This document shows positions 4,205-23,081 of a stretch of DNA of 64,000 nucleotides, one piece after another. Source of the DNA: Ferruginibacter sp. (lineage in GTDB: Bacteria > Bacteroidota > Bacteroidia > Chitinophagales > Chitinophagaceae); contig JAGOAX010000001.1 of assembly GCA_017983695.1 (NCBI GenBank), positions 352,060 to 416,059 on the forward strand, given 5' to 3'. Numbering within the stretch: the first letter of the stretch is position 1; the number at the start of each line of letters is the position of its first letter. Under the pieces are notes generated by a model. That model had not been told where the DNA came from. It saw nothing but the letters and a program-made list of their open reading frames with translations, and ran no database searches. The position numbers and the translations under genes were made by a program.

Positions 4205-6547
4205 TTAAGCCAGGGTTGTTGAAATGGTTTCATTGGTTGTTGATTTTATTGTATTGAGTTGCTCAACTTTTTTTAAACCTTTTCTTCTGCTGGTTACAAA
4301 CCAAACTAGCGGTATCACACCGCCTACAGTAAATATGGAGCCACCAATGATACGCATCCAGGTGAGTGTTTGAAACCCATTGCTTTCAATAAATGCACTG
4401 CTACGGGCATACCACAATCCCTGCTCTGTTACGGTTTTAAACTGGTAAATGCCTGCAGGAAATAAATCAAGTAATACCATCAGCAGCAAACCTATATTGA
4501 TGGACCAGAAAACTGTTTTGATCAGTTTTGGTTTCCACCAATCAGCCTTAAATAATAACTGGCAGCAAAATAAAACAGCAGCCACTGCAAGATTACCATA
4601 CACACCCATTAATGCAGCATGGCCATGATTGACGGTTAAATAAGTTCCGTGTTCATAATAATTAGCAATGGGTAAATTGATGATGAAACCGAGTACACCT
4701 GCACCAAAGAAATTCCAGAAATTAACAGCCACCAAAAAAAGGAACACTTCTGAAAATCCAAACCGTTTATTTAAATCCCCGTTTACCCGGTTATTAGTTT
4801 CCAGCAATTTTGGAAGTTTGCTGAAACGCCATGCTTCTAACGTGAGCAGTACTAAAGGGATTACCTGCAAAGTGGAGAACACTGAACCCAATGCCATTGT
4901 ACCCACAGGTTTGGCATTCCAGTAAAAATTATGGGAGATCCCGAGCAGGCCGGAACCAAGGAATAATAAGGTTGCTAAATAGATCACACGAATTACAGCC
5001 TGCCTGCTTACTAATCCCATTACCACCATGAAATATCCAATCAATACTGTGGTAAATACTTCAAAGAAAGCTTCGGCCCACATGTGTACCACCATCCATC
5101 TCCAGAAATCCGCAATCACAAAGTTAGTTTTGGGTGTAGCGATAAAACCAGAGATCAATAATAAAATTATACTGAAGGTGGTATACACTAACCAATTAGG
5201 CAACGCCCATGGCTGCTTTAGTTTCATCACCGGTTTAATGCCCCGGTATATGGTTGTTGCCCAAATAATAAATACGACTCCAAGAATAATTTGCCATAGT
5301 TTTCCAAGCTCTACATATTCCCATCCCTGATGGCCAAACCAATACCAGTTTTTTCCGAAAACACCTTTTGGCCCAAGCAACATTCCTGCAAAAGAACCGG
5401 CCACTAATATTACAGTAAGCCAAAAAATTGTATTGATGAGTGTAACCTGCTTTTTTGGTTGGATGGGTGATACAAGCGACATCATAAAAAATGAAGCGCC
5501 TATCCAGCAGGCTGATATCCATAAAATGGATAGCTGCACATGCCAGCTTCTCGTTACGGTGATTGGCAAAGCTTCTGAAATATTAAATCCAAAGAAATTT
5601 ATTAATCCTACAAAATCATGAACGGTTAAAATACCTGCTAAAACCTGCACAGCAAATAGTATAATGGCAACATAAAAGAATTTATAGGTAGACCTTTGTA
5701 TAGCATCTGGTTGAAATTTCTCTATATCGCCCCTTGTCATAAAAGGTTCAGCTTTGTTTGTATAAACATCATCATCCAGCTTATCCAGTTTGCCATGATA
5801 ATACAACACAATACCCAATCCAAATATTAATCCCAGTGAACCAATAATGCTCCACAAAATAATTGCAGCACTCGGCGTATTACCGGCTGAAGGGTCATAA
5901 GGCCAGTTATGTGTATAACTGTAATGTTCTCCCGGTCTTTCTACTCCACAAACCCATGAACCCCAAAAGAAAAAGGCGGTTAACGATTTTATTTCATTTG
6001 CATCAGTGATGTAACCGGACGGTTTAAATGCTCCGGGTGAAGACGGGTTGGTAAATTTTTGATTATAATATTTTACCAGTTCTGCCACTGCAAAAACCTG
6101 TGCATCAGAAAGTGTTACACTATTCTTTTCTTTACTGTAATGATTATTTTTAATTTCTAGTTTTACCTGTTCAGTGATACCTTTTTTAAGCAAATCACTA
6201 TTTGCTTCAGCTTTCAATTTCGATTGATAATAATCATTCATGTATTTAGAAACATAATGCAAAGCTTCTGCAGTATAGTCAGGACCCCGGTTAGCACCAT
6301 CACCAAACATACTGCCATACTCCATCAGTGCATACTTCTGAAATACTGCCTGACCATCCAGCACATCTTCCTTTGAAAAAACAGTTTCATTTTTTGATGA
6401 AACATAAGATGGAATGGGTGGAGCTTCAGTGTATGTGTGTACTCCAATCATGGTTACCCCTGCAATACTGATTATAAAAATAACGAGTAAAGGAAGCCAC
6501 CAGTTCTTAGGATTAAGCAGGTAGCTGATGAAATTATTTTTCGCCAT
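4205..6547 (-). CDS. nod: putative nitric oxide dismutase (qNOR paralogue)
   Basis: A 780-residue membrane protein of the quinol-type NO reductase family (haem-copper superfamily). It has an N-terminal membrane anchor (16-36), a periplasmic cytochrome-c-like fold without a CxxCH, and about 13 helices. The haem ligands His336, His641 and His643 are present. FeB ligands His488 and His539 and the nearby Glu492 are present. The third FeB ligand is Asn540 (SHN where qNOR has HH), and the second catalytic Glu is Gln561 (STLQ for SALE). In the quinol site His310 and Phe318 remain, but the Glu is Gly314 and the late Asp of the PGD motif appears to be Gly736. These are the changes known from nitric oxide dismutase of Methylomirabilis and relatives (2 NO -> N2 + O2). 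The start at 6547 is preferred because a longer frame (to 6661) would run through its own promoter and the divergent norC start. The gene is complete. Activity is inferred, not shown. Confidence 0.88.
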   Translation of the reverse strand: MAKNNFISYLLNPKNWWLPLLVIFIISIAGVTMIGVHTYTEAPPIPSYVSSKNETVFSKEDVLDGQAVFQKYALMEYGSMFGDGANRGPDYTAEALHYVSKYMNDYYQSKLKAEANSDLLKKGITEQVKLEIKNNHYSKEKNSVTLSDAQVFAVAELVKYYNQKFTNPSSPGAFKPSGYITDANEIKSLTAFFFWGSWVCGVERPGEHYSYTHNWPYDPSAGNTPSAAIILWSIIGSLGLIFGLGIVLYYHGKLDKLDDDVYTNKAEPFMTRGDIEKFQPDAIQRSTYKFFYVAIILFAVQVLAGILTVHDFVGLINFFGFNISEALPITVTRSWHVQLSILWISACWIGASFFMMSLVSPIQPKKQVTLINTIFWLTVILVAGSFAGMLLGPKGVFGKNWYWFGHQGWEYVELGKLWQIILGVVFIIWATTIYRGIKPVMKLKQPWALPNWLVYTTFSIILLLISGFIATPKTNFVIADFWRWMVVHMWAEAFFEVFTTVLIGYFMVVMGLVSRQAVIRVIYLATLLFLGSGLLGISHNFYWNAKPVGTMALGSVFSTLQVIPLVLLTLEAWRFSKLPKLLETNNRVNGDLNKRFGFSEVFLFLVAVNFWNFFGAGVLGFIINLPIANYYEHGTYLTVNHGHAALMGVYGNLAVAAVLFCCQLLFKADWWKPKLIKTVFWSINIGLLLMVLLDLFPAGIYQFKTVTEQGLWYARSSAFIESNGFQTLTWMRIIGGSIFTVGGVIPLVWFVTSRRKGLKKVEQLNTIKSTTNETISTTLA

Positions 6548-6571: not shown

Positions 6572-6578
6572 ATAATTA

Positions 6579-6594
6579 AGGATAAATTTGTCCT
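6579..6594. promoter_or_regulatory. candidate shared operator between nod and norC
   Basis: The sequence AGGATAAATTTGTCCT is a 16-bp near-perfect palindrome; the only unpaired position within the arms is the T/G pair. It lies 7 nt from the nod -7 element on one side and 4 nt from the norC -7 element on the other. A single dimeric regulator could therefore control both promoters. The Rrf2 and Crp/Fnr regulators encoded at 8905-10161 are candidates. Confidence 0.55.
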
Positions 6595-6598
6595 GAAT

Positions 6599-6606
6599 TA
6601 TTTTTG
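6599..6606 (+). promoter_or_regulatory. norC promoter -7 element
   Basis: TATTTTTG matches TAnnTTTG and ends 11 nt before the norC ATG, giving a very short leader. No clear -33 element is seen; the near-palindrome occupies that region. Confidence 0.55.
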
Positions 6607-6617
6607 AACAAGTATTC

Positions 6618-7019
6618 ATGTTTACTGAAAAGAGAAAAAATATTATAGCTGCATTACTCATAGTCGCTTTCTTATCCTATTCCTTCTTCCTGTATTTATC
6701 GCTGCCGGTAAAGAATATATCTGTATCTAAAGAGACCAGTAAGGGAAAGTTAGTATGGCAACAGTATAATTGCAATGCCTGTCACCAGGTGTATGGTTTA
6801 GGTGGATATCTTGGCCCGGACCTTACCAATACCTATTCGCTCAGGGGGCCTGCTTATATCAAAGCCTTTTTGCAAAACGGGACAGCCACAATGCCCAACT
6901 TTGATTTAAATGAAAAGGAAGTGAGCGCCTTACTTGCCTATTTACGAGATATAGCTGCATCCGGAAAGGGTGACCCAAGAACTTTTACAATTAATAATAA
7001 TGGCACCATCCAACAGTAA
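6618..7019 (+). CDS. norC: NorC-like membrane-anchored cytochrome c
   Basis: A 133-residue protein with one N-terminal membrane helix (about 8-29) and a periplasmic mono-haem cytochrome c domain. The haem motif is Cys52-x-x-Cys55-His56, inside YNCNACHQVYGLGGYLGP, which closely matches NorC of cytochrome-c-dependent NO reductases. The distal Met is Met92 (TMPNF). In cNOR this subunit passes electrons from soluble cytochrome c to the NorB haems. The gene is divergent from nod and its 3' end overlaps the NorB-like start by 20 nt in another frame, so the two are translationally linked. This subunit looks fully functional, unlike its partner. Confidence 0.85.
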   Translation: MFTEKRKNIIAALLIVAFLSYSFFLYLSLPVKNISVSKETSKGKLVWQQYNCNACHQVYGLGGYLGPDLTNTYSLRGPAYIKAFLQNGTATMPNFDLNEKEVSALLAYLRDIAASGKGDPRTFTINNNGTIQQ

Positions 7020-8423: not shown

Positions 8424-8870
8424 ATGCTACTAGTCACTAAAATCTTTTATTTCGAAATGGCACATGCCATTCATGGTTATGCAGGAGCCTGTAAAAATAT
8501 ACATGGCCATTCTTATGAATTGGAGGTTACTGTTTCCGGATGCACAACAAAAGACGAATATATTCTGGCACCGGGCTTTATCATCGATTTTAAAGAATTA
8601 AAACAATTGGTAACTGACTCGATTATCAGGACGATTGACCATAAACTTGTTTTATCACAGGATTATATTGCAGAGCATCCCTCTATTCGTTCTCAGGAAA
8701 ACCTGGTTATGCTTGGAGCAGAACCTACTGCAGAAAACCTGCTTATTCATTTTCAACAAATTCTATTGCAGGCATTACCATCTGGTAGTAAACTAGTTGA
8801 ACTAAAATTATACGAAACAAAGGATTCATTTGCAAGATGGATTGATACCACAACACTGAGCTATTACTAA
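8424..8870 (+). CDS. 6-pyruvoyltetrahydropterin synthase / QueD family
   Basis: A 148-residue protein of the PTPS/QueD family, which act on 7,8-dihydroneopterin triphosphate. Visible family motifs are the zinc-binding His at residue 14 (FEMAHAIHG), the Cys and HGH of CKNIHGHSYE, the DFKELK segment, TIDHKLVL, a PTAENL segment and the C-terminal ELKLYET Glu. It may make 6-carboxytetrahydropterin for queuosine (a queE gene is at 54076), or a pterin product used in the island. It sits 36 nt after the NorB-like gene and 35 nt before an Rrf2 gene, suggesting co-transcription. Why it lies with NO genes is not clear. Confidence 0.85.
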   Translation: MLLVTKIFYFEMAHAIHGYAGACKNIHGHSYELEVTVSGCTTKDEYILAPGFIIDFKELKQLVTDSIIRTIDHKLVLSQDYIAEHPSIRSQENLVMLGAEPTAENLLIHFQQILLQALPSGSKLVELKLYETKDSFARWIDTTTLSYY

Positions 8871-8904: not shown

Positions 8905-9345
8905 ATGTTTTCAAAAGCAACAGAATATGCATTAAGGGCAACGATATTCATTGCACAAAAAGGGACAGAGGATAACAAAATCGGAATCGGAGAAATCTCC
9001 AAAGCGATTGATTCACCTCCATCATTTACAGCTAAAATATTACAGGCACTTAGAAAGAATAATAAAATTATCCGGTCTGTCAGTGGGCCCAATGGCGGTT
9101 TTTATATGACTGAAAAGACGAGAAAGCTACCCGTTCGTGCTATACTTGAAGCAATGGGAGAAAATGAAATGCTGGACAAATGTGTATTGGGGTTGGCTAA
9201 ATGTTCGGAAACAAAGCCTTGTCCTATGCATTCAAAATATAAAATAATAAAAGAACAGCTGATAGAATTATTTGAAACTATAACGATTCAGCACCTGGCA
9301 GATGATATAAAAAATGGCGATGTGTTTATCAATAACAAGAAATAA
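8905..9345 (+). CDS. Rrf2-family regulator with Fe-S cysteines
   Basis: A 146-residue Rrf2 family DNA-binding protein. The N-terminal winged helix-turn-helix (FSKATEYALRATIFIAQKG ... SPPSFTAKILQALRK) is followed by the wing GPNGGFY and then three cysteines, Cys93, Cys100 and Cys106 (CX6CX5C, ending CPMH). That is the cluster-binding arrangement of NsrR/IscR-type sensors of NO or Fe-S status. It is about 50% alike by eye to the second Rrf2 protein at 16604-17035. It follows the QueD-like gene by 34 nt. A role in controlling nod/nor through the near-palindrome at 6579-6594 is plausible but unproved. Confidence 0.85.
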   Translation: MFSKATEYALRATIFIAQKGTEDNKIGIGEISKAIDSPPSFTAKILQALRKNNKIIRSVSGPNGGFYMTEKTRKLPVRAILEAMGENEMLDKCVLGLAKCSETKPCPMHSKYKIIKEQLIELFETITIQHLADDIKNGDVFINNKK

Positions 9346-9564: not shown

Positions 9565-10161
9565 ATGATAGTCGACATAGATCTTTTACAAGCGTATGGA
9601 GCAACCTATAAAAAAATCCCCAAAGGAGATTTCATTTTCACGGAAGGGGATTCCTGCTCATTTTATTATCAACTGGTAACAGGCCGAGTAAGCTGGCTGA
9701 ATATTAATGATGACGGGGAAGAGTTTATACAAATGTTAATTGAACCGGGAGAATGTTTTGGAGAATTGCCATTGTTCGATGATGAACCTTATGGCGAATC
9801 GGCAATTGCTGATGAAGACATTATTGTAATCCGTTTACATAAACCCATTTTTAAACAACTAATTGCAGAAAACGGAGCTATTCATTTTAGTTTTAGCAAA
9901 TTACTGGCACAAAGAATGCGTTTCAGGTTTATGCTATTACACTCGTTTGCCTGCCATGATCCAGTTGAGCGGATAAAAACATTACTGAATTATTTTAAAA
10001 AGGAAAATAAGAATTTTTGTAGTGAATCCAGGCAACTGAAACTCACACGGCAGCAAATAGCTGATATGACAGGTCTTCGAGTAGAGACAGTAATCAGGGC
10101 CATGCGACACATGCATGAAGCCGGAGCCGTACTTATAGAGAATGGAAAGGTATTTTGCTAA
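9565..10161 (+). CDS. Crp/Fnr-family transcription regulator
   Basis: A 198-residue regulator with an N-terminal cyclic-nucleotide-type beta barrel (about 15-115; GDFIFTEGDSCSFYYQL, EPGECFGELPLFDDEPY) and a C-terminal helix-turn-helix (LKLTRQQIADMTGLRVETVIRAMRHM, about 158-184). It lacks the N-terminal cysteine set of Fnr, so it is not an Fnr-type oxygen sensor; NO- or redox-sensing DNR-like proteins have this plain architecture. The 219-nt upstream region contains a GTCT-N6-AGAC inverted repeat near 9510 but no clear consensus promoter. It probably regulates denitrification or low-oxygen genes of this island. Confidence 0.85.
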   Translation: MIVDIDLLQAYGATYKKIPKGDFIFTEGDSCSFYYQLVTGRVSWLNINDDGEEFIQMLIEPGECFGELPLFDDEPYGESAIADEDIIVIRLHKPIFKQLIAENGAIHFSFSKLLAQRMRFRFMLLHSFACHDPVERIKTLLNYFKKENKNFCSESRQLKLTRQQIADMTGLRVETVIRAMRHMHEAGAVLIENGKVFC

Positions 10162-12247: not shown

Positions 12248-12643
12248 CTACACAAGGTTTTTAATACCCACCTTTTTATAGTGCGCTATTTTTATTTCAA
12301 ACATTTCTGCCATTTTTGCGGCACGCCATTTTGCTTTTGCTGCTTTTTCGCCGGTAAATAATTCGTCCACAGTTGGAACGAACAACTCCATCCATTTTAA
12401 AAAATGTTCGTGACCAACTGGTAATTGGGCATGTGGGGGAAAGGGGCTACTAAAATAAGTATGTTCTCCCAGTAAAACGGTTTGCCAAAAACGGTACATT
12501 TTTTCAAGGTGTTCCGGCCAGCGATTTTGAATGCGTTCATTAAAGATGGGGCCCAATAATTCATCCACCCTTATTTTTTCATAAAAACGATCAACCAATA
12601 ATTTTACATCTTCTATAGTAAGAATATCTTGCCTCATTGTCAT
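12248..12643 (-). CDS. group III truncated haemoglobin
   Basis: A 131-residue truncated globin, group III by its pattern: DVKLLVDRFYEKIRVDELLGPIF, WPEHLEKMYRFWQTVLLGEHTYFSSPFPPHAQL, then GHEHFLKWMELF with the proximal His. Globins of this class bind O2 and NO; they are seen in microaerobic or nitrosative-stress settings. The start used here is the ATG at 12641-12643, which overlaps the upstream stop as TAATG and implies coupled translation; a second ATG is two codons later. A longer upstream frame to 12715 would overlap the previous gene by 70 nt and is rejected. Confidence 0.85.
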   Translation of the reverse strand: MTMRQDILTIEDVKLLVDRFYEKIRVDELLGPIFNERIQNRWPEHLEKMYRFWQTVLLGEHTYFSSPFPPHAQLPVGHEHFLKWMELFVPTVDELFTGEKAAKAKWRAAKMAEMFEIKIAHYKKVGIKNLV

Positions 12644-13059
12644 TAAGGTTTCAGTGATAAATAGGTGAATAGATAATATAATGCCCACCCCGCAAAACCA
12701 ATGATCAGTATCCATACCCAGGAAGGAATACTTTTAGGTGTTTCACTTCCCTCTATTAAAAACATCTTCTGGTCTCCTTTACCGTAAGCATTAATCATAA
12801 TTGGCAATACCCCATCCACTACTGCATTTTCCCGTATTCCTTCCACATCAATAGCCGGTCCGTTTCTTACTTCAAAAGGAATAAGTCTGATGCCTTCTTT
12901 ACCACTCGGGTCTTTGCTTACAATTTTAAGTGTATGCTTTCCATCTACCAGTTTTCGGGTGTCCAGTTCAAAATTTACCGGTGAAGTAAAGGCCGCAACG
13001 GGTTGCTCTTCATCATCTATAAAAACAACTATTTTGCTTTTATCTTCCATGTTAGTCAA
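12643..13059 (-). CDS. membrane-anchored oxidase-operon protein, Ig-like
   Basis: A 138-residue protein with no N-terminal signal but one C-terminal membrane helix (about 112-134, SWVWILIIGFAGWALYYLFTY). The N-terminal part looks like a small beta-sandwich (VVFIDDEEQPVAAF, DGKHTLKIVSKDPSGKEG). No haem or metal motif is seen. It sits inside the cbb3-type oxidase operon, overlaps the previous gene by 8 nt and the globin start by 1 nt, so it is expressed with them. It may be an accessory or assembly subunit of the oxidase. I do not recognise a named family. Confidence 0.65.
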   Translation of the reverse strand: MTNMEDKSKIVVFIDDEEQPVAAFTSPVNFELDTRKLVDGKHTLKIVSKDPSGKEGIRLIPFEVRNGPAIDVEGIRENAVVDGVLPIMINAYGKGDQKMFLIEGSETPKSIPSWVWILIIGFAGWALYYLFTYLSLKP

Positions 13060-13349: not shown

Positions 13350-14354
13350 TCACTTAGGTGCTTGTAGTTTTACAAAATCCATGATCTTCTTTATCTCTTC
13401 CTCAGTTACTTTTTTTGCATTGTTGCCCCAGGTGCTGCGTTCGTGATTCACAATGGCCGTTACTTCTGCAGAACTTAAACTGGCATTTGTGCCAACCGGT
13501 GGCATCACGCCAAAGCCTGGCCGTCCACTGTAGCCGTTCATGATGATACCCACATATAATTCCAGATTATCTCCATTAACAACCGGGCTGCCTTTTAATG
13601 GAGGGAATGCACCAGGTAAACCTTCACCATTTGACTGATGGCAACTCTGGCAATTTGCCGTGTATAATTTAGTGCCATTCAGTTCTTTTGTTGCACCATT
13701 TGCACCTGCCGTTTCTTGTTGCCGTTTATACAGGAAATCCGGAGATGGCGTACCGTCAGGCAGTTTAACTTGTTTAAGGGATTGCAGGTAAGCAATCAAA
13801 TAAAGTGCATCGTTCGTGGCTACTACTTTCCCTTCCTCTCCATTCATATAAGCTGCAGGAACATTTACTATTACATCGCTTTTTGCAGGTTGTTTTTTAA
13901 TGGTAAATAACCATGAATAAGCAGGCATGATGGACTCTTTTACAACGGTTCTTGGATTAAATAAATGTACGAGGTTCCAGTCCTTGCTGGGTTGCCGGTT
14001 ACCGACATCGGTAAGGTCGGGCCCTGTCCGTTCAGTACCCATCAATGTAGCCGTATTGCGCCAAATATCTGTACGATGTATGTCTGCATAATCTGCTGCT
14101 AAACCCGGCCTTGCGCCCCACATTTTATCCATATCCACATTTCGTACCTGCTGTGTATGACAGGCTACGCAACCATTGGCAATGTAAATATTTTTGCCTT
14201 TTACGGCATCTGCACTTAAAGGTTCTGCCCCGGGTAAAGGCTTATTATTTTTCTGGTTATTCAGCGCAGGCAGGATGGCTACCAAAATGGTTAACCCTGC
14301 GAAAAATAAGAACGCTGTTTTGAAAAGCTTTTTATGATTATTGAAAAATTCCAT
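13350..14354 (-). CDS. CcoO-CcoP fused di-haem cytochrome c subunit
   Basis: A 334-residue subunit of a cbb3-type oxygen reductase. After one N-terminal membrane helix (13-30) comes a CcoO-like domain: haem motif Cys62-x-x-Cys65-His66 (GCVACHTQQVR), then WGARP, ADY, GTERTGPDL and the distal Met in SIMPAYSWL (Met143). A second, CcoP-like cytochrome c domain follows with Cys235-x-x-Cys238-His239 and a GVMPP Met near residue 285. Most cbb3 oxidases encode CcoO and CcoP separately; here they are one chain with two haems. It follows ccoN by 20 nt. It takes electrons from soluble cytochromes to CcoN in the inner membrane. Confidence 0.9.
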   Translation of the reverse strand: MEFFNNHKKLFKTAFLFFAGLTILVAILPALNNQKNNKPLPGAEPLSADAVKGKNIYIANGCVACHTQQVRNVDMDKMWGARPGLAADYADIHRTDIWRNTATLMGTERTGPDLTDVGNRQPSKDWNLVHLFNPRTVVKESIMPAYSWLFTIKKQPAKSDVIVNVPAAYMNGEEGKVVATNDALYLIAYLQSLKQVKLPDGTPSPDFLYKRQQETAGANGATKELNGTKLYTANCQSCHQSNGEGLPGAFPPLKGSPVVNGDNLELYVGIIMNGYSGRPGFGVMPPVGTNASLSSAEVTAIVNHERSTWGNNAKKVTEEEIKKIMDFVKLQAPK

Positions 14355-16603: not shown

Positions 16604-17035
16604 TTATCGCTTTAAATATTTTTCTCCCAATTCCAAAGATGTGTTATAGTCACCTAGTTTTGCATTTTGCATCATTGCCTTGATATGCTTTCTGACAACA
16701 ACAAACTCATCATGAACAGGACAGGGCATTTTTGCCGAGCAACTTTTTAATCCTAAACCACAGCCTGTAAATAATTTATCGCCATCGATGGCATTAACAA
16801 TATTTGCAAGACTTTTCTTAAAACCTGCTTTGTCCAGGTAAAATCCTCCGGTAGGCCCCTTGGCAGATAATAACAATCCCTTCTTCACCAGATCCTGTAA
16901 TATTTTGGCAATAAAAGGCTCAGGTGAGTCAATCGCTTTGGCAATTTGCTTTACCCCAACTTTAGTGTCACTCTTTGATTTTTGAGCTACAAAAAGCATT
17001 GCCCTGATTGCATATTCGCAGGTTTTTGATACCAT
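16604..17035 (-). CDS. second Rrf2-family regulator
   Basis: A 143-residue Rrf2 regulator: winged helix-turn-helix (SKTCEYAIRAMLFVAQK ... SPEPFIAKILQDLVKK), wing GPTGGFY, and cluster cysteines Cys92, Cys99 and Cys105 (CX6CX5C, CPVH). It resembles the Rrf2 protein at 8905-9345 throughout, so the pair are paralogues. It has its own promoter (17056-17063) and a putative autoregulatory site (17088-17102) that recurs in front of ccoN, which begins 45 nt downstream. A sensor of NO, O2 or Fe-S status for the oxidase operon is the likeliest job. Confidence 0.88.
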   Translation of the reverse strand: MVSKTCEYAIRAMLFVAQKSKSDTKVGVKQIAKAIDSPEPFIAKILQDLVKKGLLLSAKGPTGGFYLDKAGFKKSLANIVNAIDGDKLFTGCGLGLKSCSAKMPCPVHDEFVVVRKHIKAMMQNAKLGDYNTSLELGEKYLKR

Positions 17036-19599: not shown

Positions 19600-20595
19600 T
19601 TAGTGATGAGGTCTCTGCCTTTTTTTCTTTCTTCTTTTTTTAAGTAATTCAGGACTCAGCTGATCAGCAATTTTCTCCGGTTCAATTAAGGGAAAGATTA
19701 AATCGGTTACTTTCTTTTGCAGGTCAATAACAGGAGATTGATTTTGTTTTTTTAATCCTATTTGTTGAGGTAACGAAGGAGAAATTTTGTCGGTATTTCT
19801 TTCTTGCTTTTGAAATTCTTCTTGTTGAATATTTTCGTGTTTATATATGTTCGCCGGATTTTGTTTAAGCGCTAATATTTTTTCAATTTTCATTAAAGAG
19901 AAACCGACTTCACTACCTTTTATTTTTACTTTTTTATCGTCAATAAAAGAAATACCCCGGGCTTTCAAAACCCGGTATCCGAGTGCCTTCATCACTTGCT
20001 CAAATTGCTGATAATTGCTTACCTCTTGTAATGTCCTCTGAATACTATTCTTTAGTTTTTCTTTTCGCTCATCCTGCCGGGGAATTTGCCGCTGCTCTTT
20101 AGGCAAAAATTTTCTGGGACTGAGGACTTTTGTAAGGTTAAATTTCAATTCCATTCTGCGGCAATAAGACGCTATTTTTTGAAAGTTGTTACTATCGCTG
20201 ACCGTTCGTTTATCAAAGCCAATTCTGTTAGCCACAATATGCAAATGCTGGTGGCCGGTATCCTTATGGTGAATAGCTACAAATTGGTTATTTTCAAAAC
20301 CCATATCGGTTGCACAATCCTGACACATTTCAATCAGCTTTTCTTTAGGCAATTCCTCTCCCGGCGCAAGGCTAAGTGTAATGTGTAAAACAGGTTTTGA
20401 AAGCTTGGGATTTAGCTGTCTTACTTCATTAAATTGCTGTATCAATTCCTTCTGATTTCCATAGCATTGATTAAAGAGCAAAATCTCCGCTCTATCTTTC
20501 ATTACCTGCTCTTTTTTGGGGTCTTGCAGCTTATCATTCAGGCAATACAATAAACAGCCTTTAAAGGATTTTCCTATGGTTATTTTTCCAATCAT
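19600..20595 (-). CDS. mobB: relaxase / mobilization nuclease
   Basis: A 331-residue relaxase (Relaxase/Mobilization nuclease domain) that nicks oriT and stays bound to the 5' end during conjugative transfer. The histidine motif HHKDTGHQHLHIVANRI (His109 to His119) gives the metal-binding HxHxH triad; candidate catalytic tyrosines are Tyr17 and Tyr45. The C-terminal 100 residues are charged and probably disordered, ending in a Lys/Arg-rich tail (KKRRKKKRQRP). It overlaps mobC by 4 nt (ATGA), as usual in mob operons. No type IV coupling protein is nearby, so transfer would need a helper element. Confidence 0.9.
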   Translation of the reverse strand: MIGKITIGKSFKGCLLYCLNDKLQDPKKEQVMKDRAEILLFNQCYGNQKELIQQFNEVRQLNPKLSKPVLHITLSLAPGEELPKEKLIEMCQDCATDMGFENNQFVAIHHKDTGHQHLHIVANRIGFDKRTVSDSNNFQKIASYCRRMELKFNLTKVLSPRKFLPKEQRQIPRQDERKEKLKNSIQRTLQEVSNYQQFEQVMKALGYRVLKARGISFIDDKKVKIKGSEVGFSLMKIEKILALKQNPANIYKHENIQQEEFQKQERNTDKISPSLPQQIGLKKQNQSPVIDLQKKVTDLIFPLIEPEKIADQLSPELLKKRRKKKRQRPHH

Positions 20596-20972
20596 TTCAG
20601 GTAATTTTTTATTGCTTCAGCAAGCCTTTTTAAATCCCTGGATTGCACTTCTAAACCTGCTCTTTCCAGTGCATCTAATTGTTCAATTCCATTTCTTTTT
20701 TTGGCGATTTGATTGAGGTTTGCAGCGAGGTGATTCAGCGTTCCGGTAAGCTGCAAAACTTCTTGAGGGAGTGCTTTTATTTTGCTGACAGCCTGTCCTT
20801 TCAATCCGGATTCTCTTAAATATTCTGATACCGTTAACCCTAACATTTTTGCTTTCTCCTGCAGCAAAGTTTTTTCAATGAGAGTACATTTTACTCCTAT
20901 GAAATGATCTTGCTTGACCTCCTTTATTGGCCGTCCGCCTTTATTTTTTATTCTCACTGCTACTGTTTCCAT
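20592..20972 (-). CDS. mobC: MobC-like relaxosome protein
   Basis: A 126-residue MobC family protein (plasmid mobilization relaxosome protein). The N-terminal half contains a ribbon-helix-helix-like part (RIKNKGGRPIKEVKQDHFIGVKCT, EKAKMLGLTVSEYLRESGL) and the second half a helical segment with the typical LTGTLNHLAANLNQIAKK. It opens DNA at oriT for the relaxase. It is the promoter-proximal mob gene, just downstream of the hairpin-rich candidate oriT at 21012-21074, and overlaps the relaxase gene by 4 nt. Confidence 0.9.
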   Translation of the reverse strand: METVAVRIKNKGGRPIKEVKQDHFIGVKCTLIEKTLLQEKAKMLGLTVSEYLRESGLKGQAVSKIKALPQEVLQLTGTLNHLAANLNQIAKKRNGIEQLDALERAGLEVQSRDLKRLAEAIKNYLK

Positions 20973-21011
20973 CTCTCACAATTTTCTGGTGTCTGCGGCA
21001 ATACTTTTTGA

Positions 21012-21074
21012 ATCCCGACCCCAAGGCGGGATGAGAAAAGCCAGCGTTTCGGTTTAACCGAAACATAGCTGGCT
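21012..21074. other. oriT: candidate origin of transfer (oriT)
   Basis: Two inverted repeats lie between the primase-like gene and mobC. The first (21012-21032) pairs ATCCCG with CGGGAT. The second (21039-21074) pairs AGCCAGC with GCTGGCT outside and GTTTCGGTT with AACCGAAAC inside, with one loop base and a 3-nt bulge: a long, nearly perfect hairpin. Position directly upstream of mobC-mobB is where oriT usually lies. It could also act as a terminator of the primase-like gene, but the direction is wrong and no T-run follows. Confidence 0.5.
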
Positions 21075-21082
21075 ACTGAAAT

Positions 21083-22027
21083 TTAAAAGTGTCTTCCCCT
21101 TCGCTGGCTCTGTTTATGTCGTGGTTCCTGTTGTTTAATCAAATACTCGTTTAAATCTTTATACTTTTTGTAGTCATGGCTTTGATCAATGTATTTTTTT
21201 GACCATTGCAATGCCTGCTGAGTAAACTTTATTCCCGCAGAATCCCTGTCTAAAAAAAGATGAATCTGCCCGTGCTGTTCCATTCTATCCCTTTCCTTTT
21301 GAAAGAAGGATAAAGAATTAAGGATAAGAAAATTTGTCAGCGGTAAAATGTTTTCTTTATTCATTGCCTGGTGAGTCAGGAAATTAAAGAAGCCTTCAAA
21401 AACATTTAGCTGTTCTTTATTGTAGTCAAAAAAAGTTACTTCTTTTGGGGAGCTGCTGCCCTTAAAATCGGCACTCCTTAATTCGTATCCTCCGGCATTA
21501 TTTTGAAAACCAATTACTGTTCTGATTTTTCCGTATAAAAGGAAGTCAATTTCTTTACAAAATTTCTCCGCTATGGCTAAAGGGATTTGCCTTTTTTCTA
21601 AGTATTTTAAAAGCGATATTTCTGCCAGTGGTCTCGCCTCCAGTACAATAATTTTGCCCTCACTAGGAGTCTCTTTTTTTTCATCAGCAGAGGAAGGTGC
21701 AGAGGCTGGCAAATTGTGTGTTGGAGAATGCTGGTGAAAAAAAGAAATAGGTGTGTTTTGATATTGCGATAAATGCTGCAATAAATCGCTTATAGTGCAA
21801 TTAAAATAAAGTATTCCGAAATCTATCAGATTTCCACCCTTTCCAATACCGTGATCATACCATGCATTAAGGCTACGGTTTACTTTAAAAGACGGTGTTT
21901 TCTCTTCCCTTAATGGCGATAGATACCAATAGTCTTTATTACGGATTTTTTGCGGATGGTGACCTAAAGCGGCGAGGTAATCCACCAGGTCAATTTGTTT
22001 GGCTTCCAAACTCATTAGTTTTTTCAT
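21083..22027 (-). CDS. CHC2 zinc-finger / Toprim primase-like protein
   Basis: A 314-residue DnaG-like protein of mobile elements. The N-terminal part matches the zinc-finger primase domain (LVDYLAALGHHPQKIRNKDYWYLSPLREEKTPSFKV, WYDHGIGKGGNLIDF), though the classic Cys/His zinc ligands are not obvious. The second half has Toprim motifs: NVFEGFFNFLT and HLFLDRDSAGIKF. Such proteins are found beside mob genes in Bacteroidota mobilizable elements and may prime replication of transferred single strands. The start at 22027 (MKKLMS) is chosen over one 9 nt upstream. It precedes the candidate oriT. Confidence 0.8.
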   Translation of the reverse strand: MKKLMSLEAKQIDLVDYLAALGHHPQKIRNKDYWYLSPLREEKTPSFKVNRSLNAWYDHGIGKGGNLIDFGILYFNCTISDLLQHLSQYQNTPISFFHQHSPTHNLPASAPSSADEKKETPSEGKIIVLEARPLAEISLLKYLEKRQIPLAIAEKFCKEIDFLLYGKIRTVIGFQNNAGGYELRSADFKGSSSPKEVTFFDYNKEQLNVFEGFFNFLTHQAMNKENILPLTNFLILNSLSFFQKERDRMEQHGQIHLFLDRDSAGIKFTQQALQWSKKYIDQSHDYKKYKDLNEYLIKQQEPRHKQSQRRGRHF

Positions 22028-22089
22028 ACACTTCAATTTTCTCTTTCACAACTAATATCTCACTAACACAAATCAAAAGCTTATTTCAA

Positions 22090-22809
22090 TTACAATCCCG
22101 GTCTTTTGCGATGCTTTCTTTTTAAGGTATCATTCGGGCTGGGGTTTATCTTTTTTGGAAGCAGTGTTTTTGCCTGGTCAGGTTTAAAAATCTGACTGGT
22201 ATTTGCAACCGCTGTCCTAAGCCTGCTTTCCATCTCTTTCAAAGAAATATCCCTGCCCAAAAAATTTATTTTTTCCTTTTTATTAAAATCCTCAAAATAA
22301 AGCAATGCATTATGTGCCATCTGTACATTTACATCTGGATATTTTTGGACAAACCCTTCAGTGATTTTTTGCAGAGGCAGTTGCTCCAGCAGAAAATGCA
22401 TATCCACAAAATCTTTTAAACGGGTTCCGCTATGTAAGATTGCCTTTAGTTTCATGGCACCTATATCTTGAAGCGACAGCATCCTTATACCTTCAACTTC
22501 TTCAACTTTGTTTAATATTGGATACTGATGGGCAAGTATATCCACTTTAACATCCTTAATAAAACAAAATATCCCATTTTTAAGGGTTTTAATATTCTCG
22601 GCTTTATAAGTTTCGGTTAAATGACGACTGATGTGATGGGAATCAAAATCCCTGTCAGTGAAAAGGTCAATATCCACAGACATGCGGTGACCTAATTTTA
22701 GTGAAAGTGCAGTACCACCAACCAAGTTGAAGGAATCTAACTCTTTATCCTTCATCAACTCTTTAATCAGAACCAGTGTCCTGGCCTCGACTGTTTGCGT
22801 GTATAACAT
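22090..22809 (-). CDS. AbiEii-type nucleotidyltransferase toxin
   Basis: A 239-residue protein of the nucleotidyl transferase AbiEii/AbiGii toxin family. The fold motif is NLVGGTALSLKLGHRMSVDIDLFTD (GG...D-x-D), with a further VKVDILAH strand and the late KLKAILHSGTRLKDFVDMHFLLE helix typical of the family. Family members can inactivate tRNA or other targets by adding nucleotides and protect against phage. The start at 22809 (MLYTQT) gives a 43-nt overlap with the upstream partner gene; a start at 22845 is less likely. It is probable cargo of the mobilizable element. Confidence 0.85.
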   Translation of the reverse strand: MLYTQTVEARTLVLIKELMKDKELDSFNLVGGTALSLKLGHRMSVDIDLFTDRDFDSHHISRHLTETYKAENIKTLKNGIFCFIKDVKVDILAHQYPILNKVEEVEGIRMLSLQDIGAMKLKAILHSGTRLKDFVDMHFLLEQLPLQKITEGFVQKYPDVNVQMAHNALLYFEDFNKKEKINFLGRDISLKEMESRLRTAVANTSQIFKPDQAKTLLPKKINPSPNDTLKRKHRKRPGL

Positions 22810-23081
22810 AATAATTCTTCCTTGCGGAGCGGGAAATAAGCGCATACTTCTTCTATGGCATAATCAGCCAGGAATACTATTTCTTTCCTCAGTGCATGGA
22901 TTACTTTGGCTTCACCATAAAAACGAATCATTTCAGCCCATTCTTGTGGACTGCCTCTTTCAATGACCCGCGCCATGACTGTAAGGTATTCGGCTCTCCA
23001 TTCTATGTCATCATACCTGAACTCCCAGAACAAACGTCTTGGTAAATCAGGCTTATCTTGTATGGATACTTTTCTTCCCAT
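22767..23081 (-). CDS. putative antitoxin partner (DUF6922-like)
   Basis: A 104-residue protein whose pattern (LFWEFRYDDIEWRAEYLTVMARVIERGSPQEWAEMIRFYGEAKVIHALRKE ... YFPLRKEELLCYTRKQ) matches small proteins regularly encoded just before AbiEii-type toxins in Bacteroidota. It is not the winged-helix AbiEi antitoxin. It overlaps the toxin start by 43 nt, which supports coupled expression. Antitoxin function is inferred from gene order only. Confidence 0.75.
   Translation of the reverse strand: MGRKVSIQDKPDLPRRLFWEFRYDDIEWRAEYLTVMARVIERGSPQEWAEMIRFYGEAKVIHALRKEIVFLADYAIEEVCAYFPLRKEELLCYTRKQSRPGHWF

Follow-up and report, generated by a model that had tools for sequence, protein, structure and literature searches.

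In the window, i.e., the whole stretch of 64,000 nucleotides from Ferruginibacter sp. that was analysed here, a gene of the nitric oxide dismutase (NOD) family faces, across a spacer of 70 bp, a divergent unit formed by a NorC-like cytochrome c and a NorB-like protein (NBL) that lacks the first FeB His. This arrangement is read, with a probability of about 55%, as a locus in which both units are likely induced together by nitric oxide (NO) through an Rrf2-type repressor, with the NOD protein then dismutating the NO. Taken by itself, the dismutation of NO by this protein may be given odds of about even to somewhat better, and its membership of the NOD family, judged from residues and tree, is near certain.

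The window corresponds to C32:352060-416059 of a 4.48-Mb genome that is 99.6% complete. The Chitinophagaceae-like host proposed in the sequence-only reading agrees with the nearest named isolate, Hydrotalea flava (91%), the genome of which falls in the window's own family (f1, Chitinophagaceae). A NirK over the family cut-off lies 8 kb from NOD (C32:347413-348300), beside hemerythrin, ScdA-like, DUF2249, COX1-like, and Rrf2 genes, and a NosZ over cut-off is found on another contig. No match to NirS was obtained in this genome, and neither cNOR nor qNOR was found there in a search that covered the C-family NORs, as distinct from the B-family (eNOR, bNOR, sNOR, gNOR, nNOR) and the flavodiiron NORs.

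Table 1. Features of the NOD locus and its surroundings (positions within the window).
Feature	Position	Strand	Evidence or remark
NOD-family protein (780 aa) with a COX1 and a NorB cytochrome c-like domain, the haem-c motif being absent	4205..6547	-	Pfam PF00115 + PF22085, residues, tree, AlphaFold2 model
Palindrome AATTAAGGATAAATTTGTCCTGAATT in the 70-bp NOD/NorC spacer, putative operator of Rrf2 repressor	6574..6599	.	
NorC-like membrane cytochrome c, 133 aa	6618..7019	+	one CNACH haem-c motif at residue 52
NorB-like protein (NBL), 462 aa	7000..8388	+	H56, H245, H246, E267, H332 retained
6-pyruvoyl-tetrahydropterin synthase-like protein	8424..8870	+	at most 5 kb from NOD in 15/80 loci
Rrf2-family regulator	8905..9345	+	Cys93/100/106
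CRP/FNR-type regulator	9565..10161	+	
Bacterial-like globin	12248..12715	-	PF01152
cbb3 oxidase subunit II/III-like fusion (FixO + cytochrome c)	13350..14354	-	
cbb3 oxidase subunit I-like protein, 727 aa	14375..16558	-	oxidase His motifs present
Second Rrf2-family regulator	16604..17035	-	Cys92/99/105

The reading frame of NOD would extend to 818 residues if the upstream ATG at 6661 were used, and the shorter frame, which begins with the ATG at 6547, is favoured because many homologues also have 780 residues and the palindrome lies immediately upstream of that ATG. The nearest solved structure is the Geobacillus qNOR 3AYF (544 bits), the NCBIfam models returned no name for the protein, and the AlphaFold2 model has a pTM of 0.81 and a mean pLDDT of 77.8. 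Despite the PF22085 domain, a search of the protein for the haem-c motif CxxCH found none.

All of the residues named in the sequence-only reading are present in the protein. When the window protein is aligned by MAFFT with 80 further loci and the solved qNORs 3AYF and 6QQ5, the offset of 20 that had been claimed holds for H488, E492, H539, N540, and Q561, which fall on H508, E512, H559, H560, and E581 of the Geobacillus qNOR, while the two glycines assigned to the quinol site, of which Gly736 had been given as probable only, are indeed found at E332 (G314, offset 18) and D746 (G736, offset 10). The quinol-site H328 is retained as H310, and F336 is likewise retained. Given that column 560 is Asn and column 581 is Gln in 81/81 NODs (the window and the 80 loci), this pattern is not due to chance; the H508, E512, and H559 columns are also unchanged in all 81, and the quinol-site columns are more variable, with Gly in 57, Asn in 16, Asp in seven, and His in one at column 332, and Gly in 62, Ala in 17, and gaps in two at column 746. 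A divergent NOD, in which columns 328, 332, 336, and 354 are N, K, A, and L, is also present in two f1 genomes (G128 and G037; loci L124 and L125).

A tree of 40 rows, two of whose qNOR rows are long branches and which holds no Methylomirabilis or Muricauda sequences, places 34 NODs and six qNORs on either side of one branch (SH-aLRT 100). This tree and the five active-site columns, which are of the NOD type, are the check that the sequence-only reading had itself proposed, and the match to the substitutions known from NOD is borne out by both. All six qNORs are canonical at the signature columns, and four of them, with E332, H560, E581, and D746 unaltered, belong to the same bacterial family as the window, so that the contrast between NOD and qNOR is not a taxonomic one.

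The published NODs are described as having one FeB His replaced by Asn, the catalytic Glu replaced by Gln, and no proper quinol site (PMC3413370), with Muricauda already in the first NOD set (PMC3413370), and NOD has been reported in Sediminibacterium and Algoriphagus (PMC10264387), with NODs of Bacteroidota also covered by PMC13386854. The statement that NOD-like genes are known in some Bacteroidota thus accords with previous reports, and the window gene by itself is not new in kind. Together with the NODs of Methylomirabilis, strain HdN1, Muricauda (PMC3413370), and Sediminibacterium/Algoriphagus (PMC10264387), it shares the change of FeB His to Asn and of the catalytic Glu to Gln, the replaced quinol-site residues, and the qNOR-like domains without haem c. 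Unlike these known NODs, it is located in a genome with both nirK and nosZ, in a divergent arrangement with NorC/NBL, from which it is separated by a spacer that holds a conserved palindrome. In PMC13386854, the NOD enzyme is described as not yet isolated, with conflicting results both for and against dismutation, and the presence of NsrR next to nod is noted.

The spacer palindrome is likely the operator of an NO-sensing Rrf2 repressor, and the case for this putative role rests on conservation, given that the 18-bp core with two mismatches was observed twice in the window alone, against 1.05 expected, which is not beyond chance. With up to two mismatches, the core AAGGAYA-N4-TRTCCTT was found in 29 of the 76 usable NOD upstreams (four of the 80 were too short or incomplete), in comparison with 19 of 7600 base-shuffled sequences, the natural ones being related rather than independent, and 25 of the 29 matches start between -45 and -51 of NOD. 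The same core is absent from all 26 NorC upstreams which do not adjoin NOD (up to two mismatches), which indicates that the palindrome belongs to the NOD promoters and rules it out as a general NBL operator. TAnnTTTG boxes of the Bacteroidota type are found beside or inside the palindrome. In addition, several NorC/NBL upstreams away from NOD (L087-L112) have palindromes resembling ATGAY-N-RTCAT, which appear by eye to be similar to the CRP/FNR type.

Within the window's own genome, an extended pattern (up to three mismatches) matched only the spacer and C1:189893, with no match to the reversed-pattern control, and this second copy is located in the divergent promoter between an Rrf2 paralogue and an ORF of 616 aa. 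This ORF (L159:6006-7856), whose promoter carries that copy, belongs to a protein family without a Pfam match, which is also encoded in the first 1.5 kb of the window (minus strand) and occurs in eight of the 21 stretches compared, the window included.

An Rrf2 gene is found at most 5 kb from NOD in 52 of the 80 loci, and the window regulators have the Rrf2 domain and three clustered Cys. The window Rrf2 scores 28 bits against the NsrR model (cut-off 182) and 56 bits against the IscR model (cut-off 208), both far below the cut-offs; the term “NO-sensing” is derived from the genomic setting. NOD and, in this window, NorC/NBL would thus likely be induced by NO.

In the proposed mechanism, NO would act on the Rrf2-type repressor and bring about the joint induction of NOD and NorC/NBL. 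The NO may then bind at the haem b3/FeB site of NOD, which would receive no outside electrons, there being no quinol site or haem c, and two NO molecules would be rearranged to N2 and O2, with the O2 probably consumed by the nearby cbb3 oxidase. NorC, for its part, would supply NBL, with a metal presumably held by two His and Glu267, and part of the NO may be reduced there to N2O, which would be a substrate for NosZ. Neither NBL nor cbb3 is a fixed partner of NOD, given that NBL is present in only six of the 15 f1 NOD carriers (27 of the 180 other f1 genomes; p 0.024) and cbb3 subunit I is at most 5 kb from NOD in three of the 80 loci. In the window, about 270 residues precede the COX1 domain of this subunit I. 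Near the cbb3/ClC block, the minus strand at 19600-22845 carries Relaxase (PF03432), NikA-like, Toprim/CHC2 primase-like, and AbiEii-like genes, which are likely the remnant of an integrated mobile element.

The survey of the 195 f1 genomes found NOD in 15 (called at an identity of at least 56%, with one of these, G142, being a fragment), qNOR in four, and cNOR in five, and none of the 15 NOD carriers has a canonical cNOR or qNOR. In the cultured Hydrotalea flava CCUG 51397, NOD and nosZ are present, and the searches gave no NBL, no canonical C-family NOR, and no NirK above the cut-off. A nosZ over cut-off is present in 14 of these 15 carriers in comparison with 78 of the other 180 genomes (p 0.00018, in a Fisher test that ignores kinship), and in 13/13 NOD genera versus 49/88, a genus being scored as positive if any sampled genome has nosZ. 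It is also present in 26 of 30 NOD carriers that were hand-picked rather than drawn at random (27 of the 80 loci and three others, with two in Planctomycetota), including Algoriphagus, Flavihumibacter, Cecembia, and Cerina, and is not found over the cut-off in G299, Indibacter, and the two Planctomycetota. Once the three of these 30 that repeat f1 genomes were removed, nosZ was counted in 37 of 42 distinct NOD carriers versus 90 of 278 other Bacteroidota, the NOD status of which comes from a separately drawn sample of 326. This link weighs more than any other result against the simplest reading, in which oxygen is made, given that the direct formation of N2 would not need nosZ; either NO removal yields N2O as a product or co-product, or NOD is of use in the same habitats in which N2O is respired. 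NirK, by comparison, is over the cut-off in only two of the 15 f1 carriers and eight of the 30 chosen ones. Nine f1 genomes (G141, G163, G104, G076, G059, G004, G081, G011, and G064) have NirK-model matches of 171-212 bits (cut-off 296) in ORFs of about 350-420 aa, which may represent a divergent NirK group.

An alternative is that the protein serves to remove NO by converting it to N2O, whether or not O2 is formed as well, and that NosZ would complete the process without any direct formation of N2. This is unlikely but deserves weight, being favoured by the presence of nosZ in the f1 carriers, their genera, and the chosen carriers, and by the Rrf2-type regulation, although the protein has no quinol-site Glu or Asp and no haem-c motif through which the electrons could arrive, nosZ may merely mark habitats that are rich in N2O and NO, and the gene is absent over the cut-off from one f1 carrier and four of the chosen ones. 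A non-catalytic role, as a binder or sensor of NO, would be consistent with the replacement of both the FeB His and the catalytic Glu in all 81 proteins, but it is improbable, because the same substitutions are kept, together with the other named ligands, in loci assigned by their titles to five phyla, which suggests catalysis. That the protein is an ordinary quinol-oxidising qNOR is scarcely credible: it does have the domains of the solved qNORs (3AYF, 6QQ5), which it matches over its full length, shares H508, E512, and H559 with them, and is 37% identical to the qNORs of the same bacterial family, but the four defining residues are replaced (H560N, E581Q, E332G, D746G) and it falls off the qNOR side of the tree, by which this identity is ruled out.

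In the second unit, the position of the first FeB His of NBL (helix VI) is occupied by Gly195, or by Tyr194 in another alignment, and Met334 stands at the haem-b His. Among the 120 closest homologues, i.e., the best listed of 2217 matches, the helix-VI His and Glu211 are missing throughout, with one sequence gapped at the His column, and the column of cNOR H349 is Met in 120/120. No variation is seen in the NBL relatives at the two remaining FeB His, the haem b3 His, or the active-site Glu. In one comparison of NBL relatives, L007 and L031 gave no usable ORF and L061 stops before the haem b3 site. A NorC-like gene adjoins NBL in 30/30 of the family loci fetched, including that of the window. 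NBL forms its own clade (support 99), and its grouping with cNOR is not rejected (p-AU 0.083). The structure search matched cbb3 and cNOR about equally, and the database labels of the family members alternate, depending on the source, between “nitric oxide reductase subunit B” and “cbb3-type oxidase subunit I”. The metal site is not readable from the AlphaFold2 model of NBL, in which the His-His loop (244-251) has a pLDDT below 50.

Compared with the cNOR NorB/NorC (3O0R, 4XYD), which likewise has a NorC partner with haem c, NBL lacks the helix-VI His, has Glu211 and Glu215 replaced and Met in place of H349, and stands in a clade of its own; these ligands rule out a normal cNOR. Compared with the cbb3 oxidase CcoN (3MK7, 9G6B), it lacks the CuB-type helix-VI His, and its direct partner is NorC-like. 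A literature search found no paper describing NBL, but the NOR survey of Murali et al. (PNAS 2024) lay outside it, so that NBL is not claimed to be undescribed.

Called at an identity of at least 38%, NBL occurs in 33 of the 195 f1 genomes, and among 345 Bacteroidota it was found, at an E-value of 1e-40 or better, in five genomes besides the window's own. As 27 of these 33 f1 genomes have no NOD, a specific tie of NBL to NOD is ruled out. NBL is accompanied by nosZ in 26/33 genomes versus 66/162 others (p 0.000087) and, by genus, in 23/26 versus 39/75, and by a NirK over cut-off in 9/33 versus 14/162. In eight of the 33 carriers, NBL lies no more than about 12 kb from nosZ on one contig (a count over all carriers, as the 18 stretches inspected were picked partly for a nearby nosZ), where it stands with nosD, nosF, and nosY, named from the reading of the ORFs, with NosZ being identified by model. 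Given these co-occurrences with nosZ, NirK, and NOD in f1, NBL accompanies denitrification genes rather than NOD as such.

In PMC12569097, nir and nosZ without nor are reported in 9% of the Bacteroidota with denitrification genes, sequences lacking ligand domains are said to have been excluded by hand, and the NOR reference set is that of Murali et al. (PNAS 2024); NBL could be part of this gap. In PMC4250227, norB is reported to be absent from a third of the Bacteroidetes with nirK and nosZ, an absence attributed to Flavobacteriales. NBL does not explain every missing nor gene, given that of 17 f1 genomes with nirK and no canonical NOR, NBL is present in only six and NOD in two.

The chance that NBL is an NO reductase so far unrecognised may be put at about one in three. 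There is a substantial minority chance that NorC/NBL is instead an electron-transfer unit, serving, e.g., NosZ or a link between quinol and cytochrome. The loss of the FeB His and Glu211 in all of the close relatives examined and the proximity to nosZ in part of the carriers would suggest such a role, whereas the lack of any variation at the other two FeB His, the haem b3 His, and the active-site Glu speaks against it. A wider proposal, tentative and rather doubtful, is that the NorC/NBL pairs of Bacteroidota make up a new family of haem-iron NO reductases linked to cytochrome c, in which two His and one Glu would hold the FeB iron and the low-spin haem would have His/Met ligands. NorC/NBL may then account for part of the nor genes that are missing from the Bacteroidota with nirK and nosZ and no recognised NO reductase, and in the window it would act as the reducing arm next to a dismutating arm formed by NOD, with a single NO switch for both.

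Since none of the f1 NOD carriers has a canonical NOR and all but one have nosZ, a cultured carrier would provide a clean product test. The locus with NOD and NorC/NBL offers a test case for the disposal of NO by such bacteria. Sequences of the NBL family may be lost where those lacking ligands are filtered out, and if NBL does reduce NO, the set of Bacteroidota counted as producers and sinks of N2O would shift.
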